Virus record (IMG/VR): IMGVR_UViG_3300037502_002252
Coordinates: 1 to 30,334 of that record
Length of the DNA stretch: 30,334 nt
Strand: one strand, 5' to 3'
From: a virus
Below the pieces are notes generated by a model, which was given only the letters and a program-made list of their open reading frames with translations, did not search any database and was not told where the DNA came from. Shown one piece after another: positions 24,821 through 30,334 of this stretch. Numbering within the stretch: the first letter of the stretch is position 1; every line of letters begins with the position of its first letter. The translations under genes were made by a program, and so were the position numbers.

Positions 24821-25731
24821 CAGACACGACAACGACACCGGCCGCACCTTCCGTCAACACTGGAACCGCAGCCCCTGTTACGCAGCAAGCCAACGCCAAG
24901 GACGCCAAAGGCACGCCCGAAGGCACTGCGGAGGCCAAGGCCAAAGCAGAAGCCAAAAAACTGAAAATTAAGGACTTGGAGTTGGACGAAGATGCGGCAT
25001 ACCGCGAAATTCAACGTGCGCGGCAAACCAACAAATTACTTTCAGAAGCCCAACGCCGTGCCGAATTGGCCGACGAAAAAGAAAAAGCAATGGCTGCGAA
25101 AACGTCCAAATACAAGCAAGACTTGGGCGCATTGTTTGAGGACTTAGGCCTTGACGATGACACCGCGGCCGACTTGGCGGCGCAATACATTTACCGCAAG
25201 CAAGTCCTTCCTTCGCAAATGTCGCCAGAGGAAAAGCGCGTTGCCGAATTGGAAGCCAGGCTTGCGCAGTATGAAGAGGAAAAGAAAACCTTTGCCCAAC
25301 GCCAAGAGGAAGCCCAACGCGCTGAAATTGTGCGCCAAGAGTCGGAAAAGCTACAAGCGGAGTTGGTGGAAGCCGCCAAGGCAGGCCGCATTCCTTCGAC
25401 GCAATACGGCATGAAGCGCATTGCTGCCAAGTTGCTTGAATTGGAGGAAAGGGGCTTGTCTGCGCCTTTGGAGCAAGTCGCCGCGGCAGTCCGTGAGGAG
25501 TCGGGCCGCGAGTTTGGCGAAATTGCATCTTCTGCTACAGTTGCCGACTTGCGGGAATGGCTCGGTGACTCGGCATTCAAAGCCTTTTCCAAAAAAGTTT
25601 TGGACTACTTCCTTGGACAGGTACAATCAACCAAAAGCCAGACGAGGCCCCCGCAGACAAGCGTCACTTCGTCCACAAGTGAAAAACTGACACCTAGTGA
25701 ATTTTTGAAACGAATGGAGGGACGAAAATGA
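24817..25731 (+). CDS. Putative scaffolding protein
   Basis: 304 residues, highly charged and helical. N-terminal 45 residues are Thr/Ala/Pro-rich and disordered, then a long coiled coil (about 60-195, with EEKRVAELEARLAQYEEEKK and AEIVRQESEKLQAELVEAAK), and a C-terminal basic tail (SEFLKRMEGRK), which in P22-type scaffolds binds coat protein. Direct coupling to the portal gene (ATGA) supports this. No protease domain, so maturation proteolysis is not indicated. Confidence 0.68.
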   Translation: MTDTTTTPAAPSVNTGTAAPVTQQANAKDAKGTPEGTAEAKAKAEAKKLKIKDLELDEDAAYREIQRARQTNKLLSEAQRRAELADEKEKAMAAKTSKYKQDLGALFEDLGLDDDTAADLAAQYIYRKQVLPSQMSPEEKRVAELEARLAQYEEEKKTFAQRQEEAQRAEIVRQESEKLQAELVEAAKAGRIPSTQYGMKRIAAKLLELEERGLSAPLEQVAAAVREESGREFGEIASSATVADLREWLGDSAFKAFSKKVLDYFLGQVQSTKSQTRPPQTSVTSSTSEKLTPSEFLKRMEGRK

Positions 25732-26168
25732 AACCGGCACCCCTGGCAGTCTTAACAATCCTTTTCACGTCCGTGGTGTACGCGGCCGTTAACGTATGGA
25801 CAGGCACCTTTCCTTCAACTTCAACCACTGCGCCAACGTCGTCCTCTGACGGCGTTTCCTTGGTGAAGTCGGAAGGCCTGCGCGTCATGGTGTGTGCCCC
25901 CGCTGGCAACAGCGTCGACGGTGGCACCTTACAAAGTTGGTACTACGACAACCCTTTTGGTGGGTGGGTGCGCACTCCTGAATTGGATATTCCCGTGCCG
26001 ACTTCGACGGGGCAGCGTTGCATCAATTTTGGCGACTTGCAGCCATTGGTGAAGGAAGGCCGCGCATTATGGAAGCCCAACGGTGTTGTCCATTTGCTTC
26101 CTGACGCTGGCGTTGCAACGGACGGCGGCAACATTGAAGTCCGTGTTTCTACGGGAGTGTTTCAATGA
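25728..26168 (+). CDS. Secreted protein of unknown function (146 aa)
   Basis: A clear Sec signal: MKPAP, hydrophobic LAVLTILFTSVV, and cleavage site VYA before A20. The mature part is beta-rich (VNVWTGTFPSTSTTAPTSSS, LRVMVCAPAGNSVDGG, GGWVRTPELDIPVP) with two Cys. No family recognised. ATGA-coupled to the scaffold gene and to the following fibre-like gene, so the pair is co-translated. A signal peptide on a virion protein would be odd; a secreted or envelope-displayed product is the alternative. Confidence 0.7.
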   Translation: MKPAPLAVLTILFTSVVYAAVNVWTGTFPSTSTTAPTSSSDGVSLVKSEGLRVMVCAPAGNSVDGGTLQSWYYDNPFGGWVRTPELDIPVPTSTGQRCINFGDLQPLVKEGRALWKPNGVVHLLPDAGVATDGGNIEVRVSTGVFQ

Positions 26169-27226
26169 AAATTCACAAGTTATCAGCCTACGGGTTGGGG
26201 GCTTTTGTCCTGACTTTTGGCGCAACGCTGGCCTTCGGACAAGCGCGGGTGCCGTTTACTCGCCCGCCCTATTTGACGACCTCGGGGCCTATCAGCACTG
26301 AAAGCACAATCACATTGGGGCCTGATGACAAATTGTGTCTCAATGGGCCTGTATGCTCTTCGAATATTGAAGGCTCTGCTGATGGTTGGGTCAGAATGAG
26401 GCGGAACAACCAAGATTATTTTAGGTTTTCGCCGAGTGGCTTAATTCTTTCTGACTTTCCGCATTATTTTGGAAGCAATATTCAATCCACTGTTGCCTCT
26501 GGAAGCCAAGCATTTGTGTGTAGCAATGTCGGTTGTCGTCTCAGTCTCGGCAACACGGGCCGCTACCTTGTCGACGATGGTACAAACCTTGAGTTTGTCG
26601 CACCCGTGCAAGCGACAAGTTTTGAGGCTACAAACACGACAGCCAACGCAGCCTTGTTTTCTGGTGGCAGCGCGACGAATGCGATGTATTTTCAAAGCAA
26701 CGCAACGGACGCATTTACAGGCTCTGCGACTGGTTACGATAGCGCATTTGTTTTTAAGATAAATGAGAACGTTTCAGATACTGATATTGTTTTTTCCGTT
26801 CTTGCTCAAAACAACACGATCCCATTGTATTTGCAAGAAAACGGAAATCTTAACGCTCGAGGTAACATTAATGCTGGTCAGTCTGGAGAATTTTCGAGTA
26901 CAGCAGCCGTTCCGATTGTTATAGCAGGTCGACAGGCAGACGGAGCCTCGTCTGTTGGTGTTGCTTTGAGAACAAACTCAAACCTGACAACTTCAGGTGC
27001 AAAAATTGTTTCAGTGAGAAATAATGTTAGCACCGAAGTAGCTTCAATCGATAAGGACGGTCTGTTGCGAGTTAATGCAGCCAATGCCGCAAAGCCTACC
27101 TGTAACGCCACAAACCGAGGTCGTGTGTTTTACTTGGACGGCGCGGCAGGCGTGGCGGATACATACGAAATTTGCATGAAAGACGCTTCTGACGTTTACG
27201 CATGGGAAACCATCGTTACACCATAA
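26165..27226 (+). CDS. Fibre-like secreted protein, possible host-range or decoy protein
   Basis: 353 residues. N-terminal signal peptide (MKIHKLSAYGLGAFVLTFG, cleavage likely after GQA). The mature protein is strand-rich, Ser/Thr/Asn/Gly-rich, with fibre-like pattern (LNARGNINAGQSGEFSS, VASIDKDGLLRVNAANA) and ends in a compact domain with RGRVFYLDGAAGVADTYEIC and KDASDVYAWETI, a C-terminal style of phage fibre tips. Base composition and codons are visibly more AT-rich and varied than neighbouring genes and one of the two GATC sites lies here, suggesting recent acquisition. Either a tail fibre with an unneeded leader or a protein exported to the envelope. Confidence 0.6.
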   Translation: MKIHKLSAYGLGAFVLTFGATLAFGQARVPFTRPPYLTTSGPISTESTITLGPDDKLCLNGPVCSSNIEGSADGWVRMRRNNQDYFRFSPSGLILSDFPHYFGSNIQSTVASGSQAFVCSNVGCRLSLGNTGRYLVDDGTNLEFVAPVQATSFEATNTTANAALFSGGSATNAMYFQSNATDAFTGSATGYDSAFVFKINENVSDTDIVFSVLAQNNTIPLYLQENGNLNARGNINAGQSGEFSSTAAVPIVIAGRQADGASSVGVALRTNSNLTTSGAKIVSVRNNVSTEVASIDKDGLLRVNAANAAKPTCNATNRGRVFYLDGAAGVADTYEICMKDASDVYAWETIVTP

Positions 27227-27237
27227 GGATTCAACTA

Positions 27238-27540
27238 ATGGCCTCGCAATTTCTCAACGCTTCCATTCTCTCAGCCGGTATTGCCATTGGGGCAGGCGGC
27301 ACAGTGGCGACTCAGCAAGCCTCTGCTGACAAGATTCTCTATGTCAAAAAAGAGAACACCAAACTTAAGGTTGCCAACTTCACTCAACAGGACTCTGGCT
27401 GGGTCATGGTTGTGTGCGGCATCATGCACGACAACGACGGCAAAGCTCTGCCTGAAACCTGCCACCAATGTGAAGCCAAATTTCCTGCGTCAGAAGCTGA
27501 TTTTCTGGCGTGCCACTCAAAGGGCGAAGGCCTGCAATAA
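27238..27540 (+). CDS. Small Cys-rich protein with hydrophobic N-terminus (100 aa)
   Basis: The first 30 residues are hydrophobic and Gly/Ala-rich (LNASILSAGIAIGAGGTVA), possibly a signal or anchor. The C-terminal half has Cys-x2-Cys (ETCHQCEAKF) and further Cys and His (FLACH), a possible zinc site or disulphides. AAGGA lies before the chosen ATG; an ATG 12 codons upstream is inside the previous gene. Not recognised. Confidence 0.6.
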   Translation: MASQFLNASILSAGIAIGAGGTVATQQASADKILYVKKENTKLKVANFTQQDSGWVMVVCGIMHDNDGKALPETCHQCEAKFPASEADFLACHSKGEGLQ

Positions 27541-27769: not shown

Positions 27770-28033
27770 GTGAATTTTGAAAACGTGCCTTCGTGGCTTA
27801 TTCCCTTCCTTGGCAATGTGTCCGTGGCTTTGACAATGTTGCAAGTGCTTTCCAGGCGGTTGGAGGAAATCAAAAAGGAGTTGCACGAATTAAACCGCGA
27901 CTTCAGAAACACACGGGAGGAAGTTGCGGCACTTCAAAAGTCAGACGGCTTTCAGTCGGCACAAATTGCCAAGTTGGACGAACGAATTAACAAATTGGCA
28001 GACTACTGGCAAAACAGGGGCCATCATGGCTGA
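27770..28033 (+). CDS. Membrane-anchored coiled-coil protein, spanin- or holin-like
   Basis: GTG start with GGAGGG ahead. Hydrophobic segment at about residues 8-28 (SWLIPFLGNVSVALTMLQVL) followed by a charged coiled coil (RRLEEIKKELHELNRD, then IAKLDERINKLADYW). This build equals an inner-membrane spanin, and the gene overlaps the endolysin start by eight bases. A small pinholin-type protein is the alternative. Confidence 0.6.
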   Translation: MNFENVPSWLIPFLGNVSVALTMLQVLSRRLEEIKKELHELNRDFRNTREEVAALQKSDGFQSAQIAKLDERINKLADYWQNRGHHG

Positions 28034-28460
28034 CCCTATTGAAAGCCTTAAAAAAACAAAACGTCAGGCTTTCCTTAATTGGTGCTACTCCCAGAAAGGC
28101 AAGCCCTACATTTGGGCAGCAAAGGGGCCTGACGCATACGACTGTTCCGGCCTTGTCACTGCGGGCTTGCTTGCCATTGGTGGCCCCGACTGGCGGGCCA
28201 TGTGGAACAGCCAGCGTTTGTTTGGAAGCCTCAAAAACATTGAAGGACGTGCCGCAAAGGCCGGTGACTTGGTTTTCTACGGCCCACCGCACCGCATAAC
28301 GCACGTTATGGTTTTATGGGACGACGGCCGCGTGTTTGGTGCCACGGGCGGTGGAAGTCAGACAAAAACGCCAACAAAAGGCGCAGAAGTGCAATTTCGC
28401 AGTAAAGTGAAGTATCGGCCCGACGTCAGGGGCTTCCGTGCTTTTCCTTTGGAGGAATAA
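28026..28460 (+). CDS. NlpC/P60-family peptidase, likely endolysin
   Basis: 144 residues. KPYIWAAKGPDAYDCSGLV contains catalytic Cys40; GDLVFYG and ITHVMVLWDDG contain His93; this is the NlpC/P60 cysteine peptidase fold that cleaves cell-wall peptides. No signal peptide, so release would need the holin-like protein encoded next. The chosen ATG has AGGGG close ahead; an upstream frame extension of 34 codons lies within the previous gene. A role in tail-tip wall penetration is the alternative but the lysis neighbours favour endolysin. Confidence 0.8.
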   Translation: MADPIESLKKTKRQAFLNWCYSQKGKPYIWAAKGPDAYDCSGLVTAGLLAIGGPDWRAMWNSQRLFGSLKNIEGRAAKAGDLVFYGPPHRITHVMVLWDDGRVFGATGGGSQTKTPTKGAEVQFRSKVKYRPDVRGFRAFPLEE

Positions 28461-28463
28461 ACA

Positions 28464-28964
28464 ATGTTGTTACTTGCCCAAGCAGAAGCGTCCTTTGACT
28501 TTGCGGCCATTTTCAAAACCCTATTGGAAGCCGTCAAAAGCGGTGATTGGGTGGCGGTTGCCGCTGCGGTGTTGGTGTTGGTGGTTGCCGCCATTCGAGT
28601 GTACGGCCAAAAAGTCCGTGGCGAGTTGCCGGACAACACCTTGGTTGACAAGGCCTTGACGTGGCTTTTGGAGTCCAAGCCAGGCGGTTGGGTGCTTAAC
28701 ATTTTGACAGCGTTGGCCGGTGCCTTTGCCACTGCGTTGTTGGCAGGTGCGCCCATAACCTTTGGACTTGTCAAAGCCGCCCTGTTGACGGCGTTGTCAG
28801 GTGCCGCCCTTTGGGAGTTGGTGAAGGACGTTTTGGCTTGGTGGGCTTCCAGGCAGGCTTTGGAGGCAGGCGCAAAGGCTGCGGCGGGCATTGGCGACAG
28901 CAAAGCCGCGGTGGTTGCCATTAACGAGCGCACCAAAACGCAGCCAGAAAACAAGGCCCCGTGA
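28464..28964 (+). CDS. Putative holin
   Basis: 166 residues with about three membrane spans: near 30-47 (WVAVAAAVLVLVVAAIRV) and two in 76-118 (VLNILTALAGAFATALLAG, FGLVKAALLTALSGAALW). A hydrophilic charged C-terminal tail (KAAVVAINERTKTQ) fits cytoplasmic regulation. GGAGG eight bases before the ATG and immediate position after the endolysin gene support the call. Charged residues between spans are few. Confidence 0.65.
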   Translation: MLLLAQAEASFDFAAIFKTLLEAVKSGDWVAVAAAVLVLVVAAIRVYGQKVRGELPDNTLVDKALTWLLESKPGGWVLNILTALAGAFATALLAGAPITFGLVKAALLTALSGAALWELVKDVLAWWASRQALEAGAKAAAGIGDSKAAVVAINERTKTQPENKAP

Positions 28965-29275
28965 CGCACTGGCTTTTGTTGGTGACATTGGCGCAGGCAC
29001 CTGACGCCCCAACCATACAACCCCCCGCCCGCGAAATTCAGGGCGGCGTTGCCATCGTCGACGGTGGGGAGGCTGTCAACCTACAGCTTGGGGATTGTTA
29101 TGTGCCAAAAGCACGGTGCGTGGCTTATGTCAAAGAAGCGGAAGCCTGTTTTGCTGAAAGGCAGGTGTTGCAACAGGCCCCCGCACCTGGCCCAATTCAT
29201 TGGTGGGTGGTTGCTGTCATTGGCGTGGCTTCCTTTGGCGCAGGCGTGGCACTTGCCCAGTCGTTAAGCCCATGA
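28961..29275 (+). CDS. Small envelope protein with two hydrophobic ends, spanin-like
   Basis: 104 residues, GTG start overlapping the holin stop (GTGA). Short hydrophobic N-terminus (HWLLLVTLAQA, possible signal), periplasmic-looking Pro-rich middle with two Cys pairs (GDCYVPKARC, EACFAE), and a clear C-terminal span (WWVVAVIGVASFGAGVALA). Placed between holin and lipoprotein genes, where an inner-membrane spanin is expected; but the reversed topology (C-terminal anchor) makes that uncertain. Confidence 0.55.
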   Translation: MTHWLLLVTLAQAPDAPTIQPPAREIQGGVAIVDGGEAVNLQLGDCYVPKARCVAYVKEAEACFAERQVLQQAPAPGPIHWWVVAVIGVASFGAGVALAQSLSP

Positions 29276-29748
29276 GAAAGGCCGCGTTGGCCATGTTGTT
29301 AAGTGGCTGCGTTGTGCCTCCAAACGACTGCGTGACGGCCTGCGGCATGGGCGTCAGGGGCTTTTCTGACTGCAACGAATTAAACGCTTATGAAGCGGTG
29401 GGTGTCGAAACGTTTTCTTACCTGTACGACGCCCTTTGCCAGCGGTTGGACTCGGTTGTGCTTCAAGTCAAAAATACGCCTGACGGCTCATGGATTGACG
29501 AATTTGGCCGCAAAGTCGACGGCCTGACGTGGTGTGACTTGGCTTTTGTCGAAGTCGGCAACAGCAACTGGCAAACCAACGCCTATTTTCATGAGTTGGC
29601 GCACGTTGCCCAATGCCCGTTTCAGGACTCAAAACACGAAACATGGGAAGGCCTTGGCATTTGGGCGCACCTGGACGCCTTGAAGGCTTCATTTGTAGAA
29701 AATAACCAAGCGGCCCCTGATGACCTCACCAACACTAACGGCCCGTGA
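29272..29748 (+). CDS. Lipoprotein with HELAH zinc-metalloprotease motif
   Basis: 158 residues. Lipobox LLSGC with the lipidated Cys13, so the mature protein is envelope-anchored. The motif AYFHELAHVAQCP gives His107, Glu108 and His111 of a zincin; third-ligand candidates His122, Glu123, Glu126 and His133 follow. Six further Cys (20, 24, 34, 56, 88, 115) suit periplasmic disulphides. ATGA-coupled as last gene of the lysis block, the usual place of an outer-membrane spanin lipoprotein. Functions to consider: a peptidase attacking envelope proteins, a variant spanin, or an exclusion factor. Its last 60 bases overlap, antisense, the end of a leftward gene. The short leader (12 residues) is normal for phage lipoproteins. 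Confidence 0.68.
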   Translation: MRKAALAMLLSGCVVPPNDCVTACGMGVRGFSDCNELNAYEAVGVETFSYLYDALCQRLDSVVLQVKNTPDGSWIDEFGRKVDGLTWCDLAFVEVGNSNWQTNAYFHELAHVAQCPFQDSKHETWEGLGIWAHLDALKASFVENNQAAPDDLTNTNGP

Positions 29749-29922
29749 CTTGGCTTCCTTCCTCAATTTCAGCACCATTTTCTTTGGCAACCGCACCGCA
29801 ACTGGAATACCGGCCACTTCTGCCTTGGGTTGAATGCCTGCCGCCCTGCGCCGCCCCTTTTGGTAGCAGGCAGCGCAAAGGCTTCGGGCAACGGTAGGTG
29901 ACTTTCCGCATGCGCATTTCAC
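29689..29922 (-). CDS. Zinc-ribbon plus ribbon-helix-helix protein, paralogue 1
   Basis: 77 residues. Start KCACGKSPTVARSLCAACYQ has Cys3, Cys5, Cys16 and Cys19, a small zinc site, then basic GRRRAAG. The C-terminal part (IPVAVRLPKKMVLKLRKEAK, then VGEVIRGRLV) follows the strand-helix-helix pattern of RHH proteins. Last gene of the leftward operon; start overlaps the paralogue's stop (ATGA). Likely a DNA-binding regulator. Its end runs 60 bases antisense into the lipoprotein gene. Confidence 0.65.
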   Translation of the reverse strand: MKCACGKSPTVARSLCAACYQKGRRRAAGIQPKAEVAGIPVAVRLPKKMVLKLRKEAKSRAVSVGEVIRGRLVIFYK

Positions 29923-30170
29923 TGGACGTCACCAAAAATGCAAGCCATGTATTTGCGCACGACGTCGGCAACATTGACGCCCTGCGCCCGCGCTTCGTGC
30001 CGAATGGCCTCCGCAATAGGCACCGGCAGGCGTGCCGCAACCATACTGCCGTGAATGACTTTGCGCGGTGGTATGCCCCTGTTACGACGGGCCTGCCACT
30101 GCCAACACGTCTTACAAAGCCTGCGGCCCCTGGCGTTTCGCCCGCACCGCTTGCAAATGTAATACTTCAC
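29919..30170 (-). CDS. Zinc-ribbon plus ribbon-helix-helix protein, paralogue 2
   Basis: 83 residues from a GTG. Cys6, Cys9, Cys19 and Cys22 (CKRCGRNARGRRLCKTC) form the zinc ribbon; ARRNRGIPP is the basic link; VAARLPVPIAEAIRHEARAQ and VNVADVVRKYM form the RHH part. It aligns domain by domain with its neighbour. The GTG start was preferred to an ATG 12 codons upstream because the paralogue begins just before the ribbon, GGTGGGG precedes it, and it overlaps the stop of the 30-aa gene (GTGA). Confidence 0.68.
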   Translation of the reverse strand: MKYYICKRCGRNARGRRLCKTCWQWQARRNRGIPPRKVIHGSMVAARLPVPIAEAIRHEARAQGVNVADVVRKYMACIFGDVQ

Positions 30171-30259
30171 GGCGTGCCCCACCAAACCAAGGCCATAAGC
30201 ACCCATAGGCCAACCAAAAAAACGACACTGCCAACGACTTGCTCAATGGCTTCCTTCAT
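30167..30259 (-). CDS. 30-aa single-span membrane miniprotein across the circle junction
   Basis: Translation gives MKEAIEQVVG, then a hydrophobic segment (SVVFLVGLWVLMALVWW) and GTP before the stop. The ATG overlaps the stop of the exonuclease gene (ATGA) and the stop overlaps the GTG of the next gene (GTGA), a tight chain in one direction. It is complete in this window only through the right copy of the terminal repeat. Function unknown. Translational coupling at both ends argues that it is real. Confidence 0.5.
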   Translation of the reverse strand: MKEAIEQVVGSVVFLVGLWVLMALVWWGTP

Positions 30260-30334
30260 TTCTTTGCCCCCTTCGTTGCTGAAAAGCGCGGTGTTTGCGT
30301 TTTGACTGCGCATGTATCTACACGGGCGTTTAAG
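30208..30334. repeat. Right copy of 127-bp terminal direct repeat
   Basis: Exact second copy of the window start. Joining the copies gives a circle of 30,207 bp and makes the leftward operon continuous from the exonuclease gene into the miniprotein and zinc-ribbon genes. Confidence 0.95.
30256..30334 (-). CDS. Duplicate 3' end of the exonuclease gene (assembly overlap)
   Basis: The right terminal repeat contains the last 25 codons and stop of the exonuclease gene, identical to those at the left end. It is the same gene seen twice in the opened circle, not a second locus. Confidence 0.9.
   Translation of the reverse strand, partial: LNARVDTCAVKTQTPRFSATKGAKK

Follow-up and report, generated by a model that had tools for sequence, protein, structure and literature searches.

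The viral DNA analysed here, called the window throughout, comprises the 30,334 bases of one virus record; it carries an exact direct terminal repeat of 127 bases (1-127 and 30208-30334) and is therefore probably a complete phage genome. PHROGs recognised in the window an exonuclease, an Erf-like annealing protein, DnaC- and DnaB-like proteins, a RusA-like protein, a terminase and a portal protein. The gene under study encodes a predicted lipoprotein and stands last in a block that runs from an NlpC/P60 endolysin candidate through a protein with three hydrophobic segments (3TM) to a 104-aa membrane protein. The genes and features of this region are as follows, G001 and G002 being two records that hold relatives of the lipoprotein:

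27770..28033, + strand: 87-aa protein with an N-terminal hydrophobic segment and a coiled coil, possible i-spanin or XhlA-like protein
28026..28460, + strand: NlpC/P60 enzyme, endolysin candidate (Pfam NLPC_P60, E 5e-12)
28464..28964, + strand: holin candidate of 166 aa, three hydrophobic segments; no family match, equivalents in G001 and G002
28961..29275, + strand: 104-aa protein containing cysteines and one hydrophobic segment towards the C-terminus (81-99); 49% and 39% identity in G001 and G002, respectively
29272..29748, + strand: zincin-like lipoprotein gene, 158 aa; open frame, 14 relatives aligned
29308..29310, + strand: Cys13 codon, predicted lipidation site in the lipobox L-S-G-C; Cys in 14/14 members with N-terminus
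29341..29439, + strand: stretch bounded by the codons of C24 and C56, which are predicted to pair in a disulfide; C24 in 13/14, C56 in 13/15
29533..29616, + strand: stretch bounded by the codons of C88 and C115, which are predicted to pair in a disulfide; both in 11/15, neither in 4/15
29590..29604, + strand: HELAH 107-111 codons, predicted zinc ligands H107 and H111 and catalytic E108; 15/15, modelled helix 104-114
29635..29646, + strand: H122 to W125 codons, H122 being the candidate third zinc ligand; both residues in 15/15

The start of the 104-aa gene overlaps the stop of the 166-aa gene (GTGA), and the lipoprotein ATG in turn overlaps the stop of the 104-aa gene (ATGA). The best PHROG for 28026..28460 is a tail protein sharing the NlpC/P60 domain (E 5e-14), and the holin label of the 166-aa protein was judged by eye. 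Matches of 27770-28033 to spanin and hemolysin PHROGs reached E values of about 1e-3, which coiled coils can give by chance. A preliminary description of the sequence had placed the lipoprotein gene at the o-spanin position, which is fair considering the NlpC/P60 enzyme and the three-segment and one-segment membrane proteins encoded upstream. No classical i-spanin gene lies directly upstream of it: the sole N-terminal-TM coiled-coil gene precedes the endolysin gene, and the neighbouring 104-aa protein carries its TM segment at the C-terminus. A crude lipobox scan of both strands yielded one other candidate, which is antisense to a 617-aa gene.

Several further features of this and related genomes were recorded. 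The product of 28961-29275 resembles that of L066 13267-13569 in being a small protein that contains cysteines, begins with a hydrophobic or signal-like stretch and carries a TM segment at the C-terminus; such proteins adjoin holin-like genes in four phages, are devoid of a family match and constitute a possible unrecognised lysis component. Moreover, signal-peptide-like starts were noted in late genes that precede the lysis block, by a crude heuristic in the window (25728-26168, 26165-27226 and 27202-27540) and by eye in L066 (7326-9046) and L001 (8194-8532 and 12117-13861). Fibre-like proteins are among these late genes, whose starts suggest that these phages export a group of late proteins. 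Two adjoining genes on the minus strand of the window (29689-29922 and 29919-30206) combine a CxxC zinc-ribbon-like start with a ribbon-helix-helix-like end, as read from weak Pfam matches, and two genes similar to them come after the lipoprotein gene in G001.

Translation of 29272-29748 yields 158 aa with the N-terminus MRKAALAMLLSGC and bears out what the preliminary description had listed for a protein of this length: a lipobox with Cys13, HELAH at 107-111 and six more cysteines (Cys20, 24, 34, 56, 88 and 115). The protein has no hydrophobic segment at the threshold used and hence no C-terminal TM domain; assignment as a unimolecular spanin (u-spanin), which would require such a domain besides the lipobox, was rejected. 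HExxH occurred in 862 of 200,000 shuffles of the protein (0.43%), so the motif by itself is only moderately unusual and it is conservation across the family that carries weight.

Among phages, plain tblastn returned a single distinct relative: P0002, encoded in MW202637 (26% identity, E 2e-3), which features a lipobox-like start, HELFHVAQ and D-x2-H-x2-W, and single-protein and two-sequence scans returned none. Beyond tblastn, short-pattern searches were required, which either contained the motif or were free of it. Motif-containing patterns gave L017/G001 and L044/G002, both about 50% identical to the window protein, as well as L050/G003, L018/G004, L010/G005, L016/G006, L087/G007, L183/G789 and L196/G788. 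Since the motif was the search criterion, its conservation among these finds alone would be circular. Motif-free patterns, built solely on the W-x-D...R-x-V-x-G region, gave seven distinct members, namely L017, L044, L050, L183, L196, L122 (identical to L124; G008/G009) and L286, of which L122 and L286 had been missed by the first motif patterns; all seven display HExxH and the following H-x2-W. Profile search disclosed two more paralogues in the record that holds L196, so that G788 contains three copies. With G008/G009, which apparently carry the same protein, and MW202637/MW202789 counted once each, 14 distinct relatives reside in other phage records, giving 15 distinct proteins including that of the window.

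Candidates beyond this set were scored and set aside. Other phage HExxH proteins found by motif patterns (such as HEMVHVEQY, HEMVHIDQM, HEMVHAEQY and HEKVHVDQI) were excluded on near-background scores (best E 0.0014). Three of the eight loci of the first motif-free scan proved unrelated (L121, L123 and L125); the first profile scored L125 at E 0.003, solely through the stretch that the pattern had imposed, and a later profile at 0.19, and the L125 frame stops soon after that stretch without the motif. In the second motif-free scan, 6 of 12 loci were unrelated (L281-L285 and L287; best E 0.56).

A motif pattern scan of genome contigs gave 53 loci, of which the profile identified one, L087, as a family member. 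A bacterial chromosomal family was rejected, as this sole profile-confirmed contig locus has phage-like neighbours, and the contig is probably a phage contig. L087 (also L129; CALMSM010000281.1) thus represents a family member on a phage-like contig inside a metagenome-assembled genome binned as Saccharibacteria. Saccharibacteria are a lineage not known to possess an outer membrane, and the assignment of this contig to them is likely a binning error. Profile search of 377 genomes from the phylum of a Myxococcota record gave four matches, all weak (E 9e-5 to 4e-4). The open frames concerned are 480-644 aa long and contain HELFHAIQDQ or HEIFHAIQDQ as well as an EGDA segment. These matches end before the H122-W125 region and may be read, by sequence, as superfamily-level similarity. 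In the phylum of a Hydrogenophaga record, 398 genomes gave none. Because about ten first-look candidates were scored per genome in both searches, absence of family members there is weak evidence; the same profile does recover those in G788 and G789.

In the alignment of all members, W74, G84, H107, E108, H111, H122 and W125 are identical in 15/15, Q114 is kept in 14/15 and D119 in 12/14. The preliminary description had made its protease reading depend on conservation of the motif among homologues, and with HExxH and H122 present throughout, this test did not refute it. Eight of the 15 members were found without recourse to the motif, seven by motif-free scans and one by plain tblastn, and HExxH is kept in all eight. 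Judged by this conservation, the family would qualify as zincin-type metallopeptidases. C88 occurs in 11 members, and the same 11 have a cysteine beside Q114 (C115), the remaining four having neither; this joint presence or absence in 15/15 suggests a C88-C115 disulfide. C24 and C56, kept as frequently as listed above, likely form a second one.

Cys13 is kept in every member with a readable N-terminus, and 13 of these 14 have a lipobox-like start; the exception is a G788 paralogue (31979-32497) with an N-terminal TM-like segment and no convincing lipobox. By their signal peptide with a lipobox Cys, these 13 members are predicted to be lipoproteins. Asp is absent from position +2 in all of them, and under the E. 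coli rule for lipoproteins this predicts outer-membrane sorting; the lipobox would thus provide the outer-membrane lipoprotein signal that is expected of an o-spanin.

AlphaFold2 gave a pLDDT of 75.6 and a pTM of 0.73 for the window protein (9 sequences), with five models that differ and range in mean pLDDT from 75.6 down to 45.0, and a pLDDT of 89.1 and a pTM of 0.83 for the G003 member (11 sequences). Foldseek returned no match at E 0.001 or below for either model and nothing below E 0.5 against viral models; its weak PDB list for the G003 model consists mostly of metallopeptidases, with an M61 peptidase at rank 1 (E 0.08). In VIA-align, the matches listed for each model (50/50 in both cases) belong to zincin-type metallopeptidases or to YbeY-type proteins (the structures 1tvi and 1oz9 being presumably YbeY), with top Z values of 6.6 for the window model and 7.3 for the G003 model, although values below 8 may reflect only a common arrangement. 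The consistency of these comparisons together with the HExxH helix gives good but not final support for the modelled zincin fold, and bears indirectly on the other condition of the preliminary description, a zinc site in the model. Metzincins were rejected as a class, for HExxHxxGxxH/D does not fit the window protein, which reads HELAHVAQCPF, and G and H/D occur at the metzincin motif positions in 0/15 members.

The window protein has no credible match in Pfam or PHROGs, and neither has any of nine members searched singly against Pfam, NCBIfam and PHROGs (best E 0.014, 0.024 and 0.007, respectively, each reached in one or two members). Solved-structure sequences yielded no match at E up to 1 to a profile of the larger alignment, and noise only to that of the two-sequence alignment. 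Hence, the family is outside every library searched (Pfam, NCBIfam, PHROG and solved structures), and the open-access literature searched yielded no description of such a phage protein. Taken together, the family is best read as new membrane-tethered, disulfide-stabilised zincin-like peptidases of phages, as far as alignment and models can indicate, and the product of the window gene is very probably a membrane-tethered peptidase of the zincin type.

The genomic surroundings of the relatives vary. G001 and G002 show the same order of NlpC, 3TM, C-terminal TM and zincin-like lipoprotein genes, and the ATGA overlap with the 104-aa gene is kept in G001. In G003, a gene for a 111-aa membrane protein lies directly upstream and a glucosaminidase endolysin gene 4.2 kb downstream; in G008, a TM-coiled-coil gene, a two-TM gene (both without family match) and a short lipoprotein gene are found directly upstream. 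The G789 gene adjoins, in convergent orientation, a GH19 endolysin gene and has another lipoprotein gene alongside, and L286 is convergent with the gene of an M15 peptidase, a probable endolysin. The Manatee Spring phage has an NlpC-like gene, weakly recognised by its match to a PHROG endolysin (E 0.06), at a distance of about 0.7 kb on the downstream side. The G004 gene is surrounded by fibre-like and exported-looking genes; about 2.7 kb further downstream lie genes that were taken by eye for putative lysis genes and have no family match. That of G006 sits between primase-like and sigma-like genes, as judged by eye. In G005 and G007 the family gene is near contig ends. In G788, a gene for a papain-family protease begins within 16 bases downstream; this gene (L298 7537-8310; Pfam Peptidase_C1, E 7e-32), whose product has a signal-peptide-like start, directly follows one of the zincin-like lipoprotein genes. 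The link to lysis is thus firm in the window's own lineage and frequent but not universal elsewhere.

From these observations a course of events can be proposed. The lipoprotein would be exported and lipidated at Cys13, as its lipobox implies, and, being devoid of Asp at +2, would then reach the outer membrane, where about ten residues would separate its compact domain from the lipid. The modelled fold and the strictness of conservation suggest that zinc would be bound by H107, H111 and H122 and water activated by E108, and the co-occurrence of cysteines suggests that the domain would be held by the C24-C56 and C88-C115 disulfides. Since its gene shares a block with those of the endolysin and the preceding membrane proteins, the lipoprotein is probably made late. 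It is proposed to cleave a host envelope protein near the outer membrane, or else the co-encoded 104-aa membrane protein, whereupon the outer membrane would give way when the endolysin acts. We assign a probability of roughly 0.43 to this overall reading of a lipid-anchored zincin-type metallopeptidase that acts as a late, lysis-assisting envelope protease. A late, lysis-linked role is favoured by the gene context in the window, G001 and G002. The lysis-assisting reading draws on the shared block in G001 and G002 and on the adjacent endolysin genes of G789 and L286, and has a precedent in the lysis-raising Listeria protease Mtz (PMC8235301); a universal lysis role is contradicted by the differing contexts of G006, G004 and G788 and by the convergent orientation of the G789 and L286 genes relative to the lysis genes. 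Provided that the product is indeed a membrane-tethered zincin-type peptidase, the odds of a lysis-assisting role are even. A more specific form, namely an enzymatic o-spanin that cuts the protein links holding the outer membrane instead of fusing membranes, and whose activity the co-translated 104-aa inner-membrane protein possibly restrains before lysis, is doubtful.

Alternatively, the predicted peptidase could clip a receptor in the outer membrane, or some different protein on the surface of the infected cell, and thereby serve superinfection exclusion or surface remodelling. The T5 lipoprotein Llp masks a receptor, and the exclusion reading would represent its catalytic counterpart. A lipid anchor predicted in 13/14 members with N-terminus suits such a role, as do the non-lysis contexts of G006 and G788, the opposition of the G789 and L286 genes to late genes and, in G789, the company of another lipoprotein gene, as is often the case for 'moron' genes. 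On the other hand, the gene is the last of the lysis block in the window, G001 and G002, and the translational overlap in the window and G001 suggests expression too late for exclusion; this alternative is rather unlikely. The same ATGA overlap with the 104-aa gene speaks for a protease that processes co-exported phage proteins, cutting either the 104-aa membrane protein or upstream fibre-like proteins with signal-peptide-like starts, in analogy to the cleavage of Tim by Mtz, for which PMC8235301 provides the precedent. Processing agrees with starts of this kind at 25728, 26165 and 27202, as picked out by a crude heuristic, and with the presence of neighbours that look exported in G004, G008 and the Manatee Spring phage. 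It is nevertheless unlikely: the 104-aa protein is not seen beside most of the distant members, and a similar protein in G004 (24% identity) is encoded 3.7 kb from the peptidase gene.

It is quite improbable that the protein is a non-catalytic, o-spanin-like factor with a purely structural zinc-bound fold that acts by contact with an inner-membrane partner. Its position after the endolysin and membrane proteins, as the sole credible lipobox gene of the window, would fit, and in T4-type o-spanins, too, two conserved cysteines belong to a folded domain (PMC6139136). Yet E108, which would be dispensable for zinc binding, is identical in 15/15, only a short linker would join the domain to the lipid, and the contexts of G006 and G788 are not spanin-like. 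Finally, a chance HExxH in an unrelated lipoprotein, to which its occurrence in 0.43% of shuffles might point, was rejected on conservation in 15/15 members, motif-free finds included, as well as on the fold comparisons, and is exceedingly improbable.

With regard to the favoured lysis-assisting reading, a conserved, catalytic-looking lipoprotein in or near the lysis blocks of diverse uncultivated phages offers a testable alternative to spanin fusion. The available text of the spanin survey PMC6139136 does not describe outer-membrane lysis steps of phages as proteolytic, and sequence conservation in this family suggests that some phages may cut host envelope proteins late in infection. Even if the role should be exclusion or processing, a family of small proteins of this kind, zincin-like, disulfide-bonded and lipid-anchored, would merit classifying.

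Comparison with known systems further delimits the family. TIGR04549, a zinc metallohydrolase lipoprotein of TonB-linked import systems, is likewise a lipoprotein with HExxH, though just one of nine members matches it, at E 0.2 and below a meaningful level. With zincin-type metallopeptidases (M1, M9, M61, PPEP, MMP and Wss1) the family shares, in the models, the HExxH helix and the overall arrangement. It differs from zincins at large in being small and, by prediction, lipid-anchored and disulfide-rich, has no significant sequence or Foldseek match to them, and presents as third candidate ligand the His of a D-x2-H-x2-W segment that follows a loop of variable length. In Listeria, the phage-derived HExxH metzincin Mtz cleaves the adjacent lipoprotein Tim and raises phage-mediated lysis, as described in PMC8235301. 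Both systems thus comprise a phage-derived, exported HExxH protein beside a membrane-anchored protein with a link to lysis. According to the same paper, however, Mtz is a secreted metzincin with HEXXHXXGXXH/D and a Met-turn, and its partner is the lipoprotein, whereas here the predicted protease itself bears the lipobox, is devoid of the metzincin motif and belongs to a different envelope type. Spanins are described as acting by membrane fusion in PMC6139136, in keeping with the view in the preliminary description that they act without catalysis. Like two-component o-spanins of lambda (Rz1) and of the T4 family, the present protein is a phage lipobox lipoprotein with conserved cysteines that is encoded together with an endolysin and membrane proteins. 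Classical o-spanin features are thus found only partly, since the gene is without an adjacent N-terminal-TM i-spanin and its product carries, instead of a short linker or a proline-rich domain, a predicted globular zincin-like domain with a conserved HExxH.
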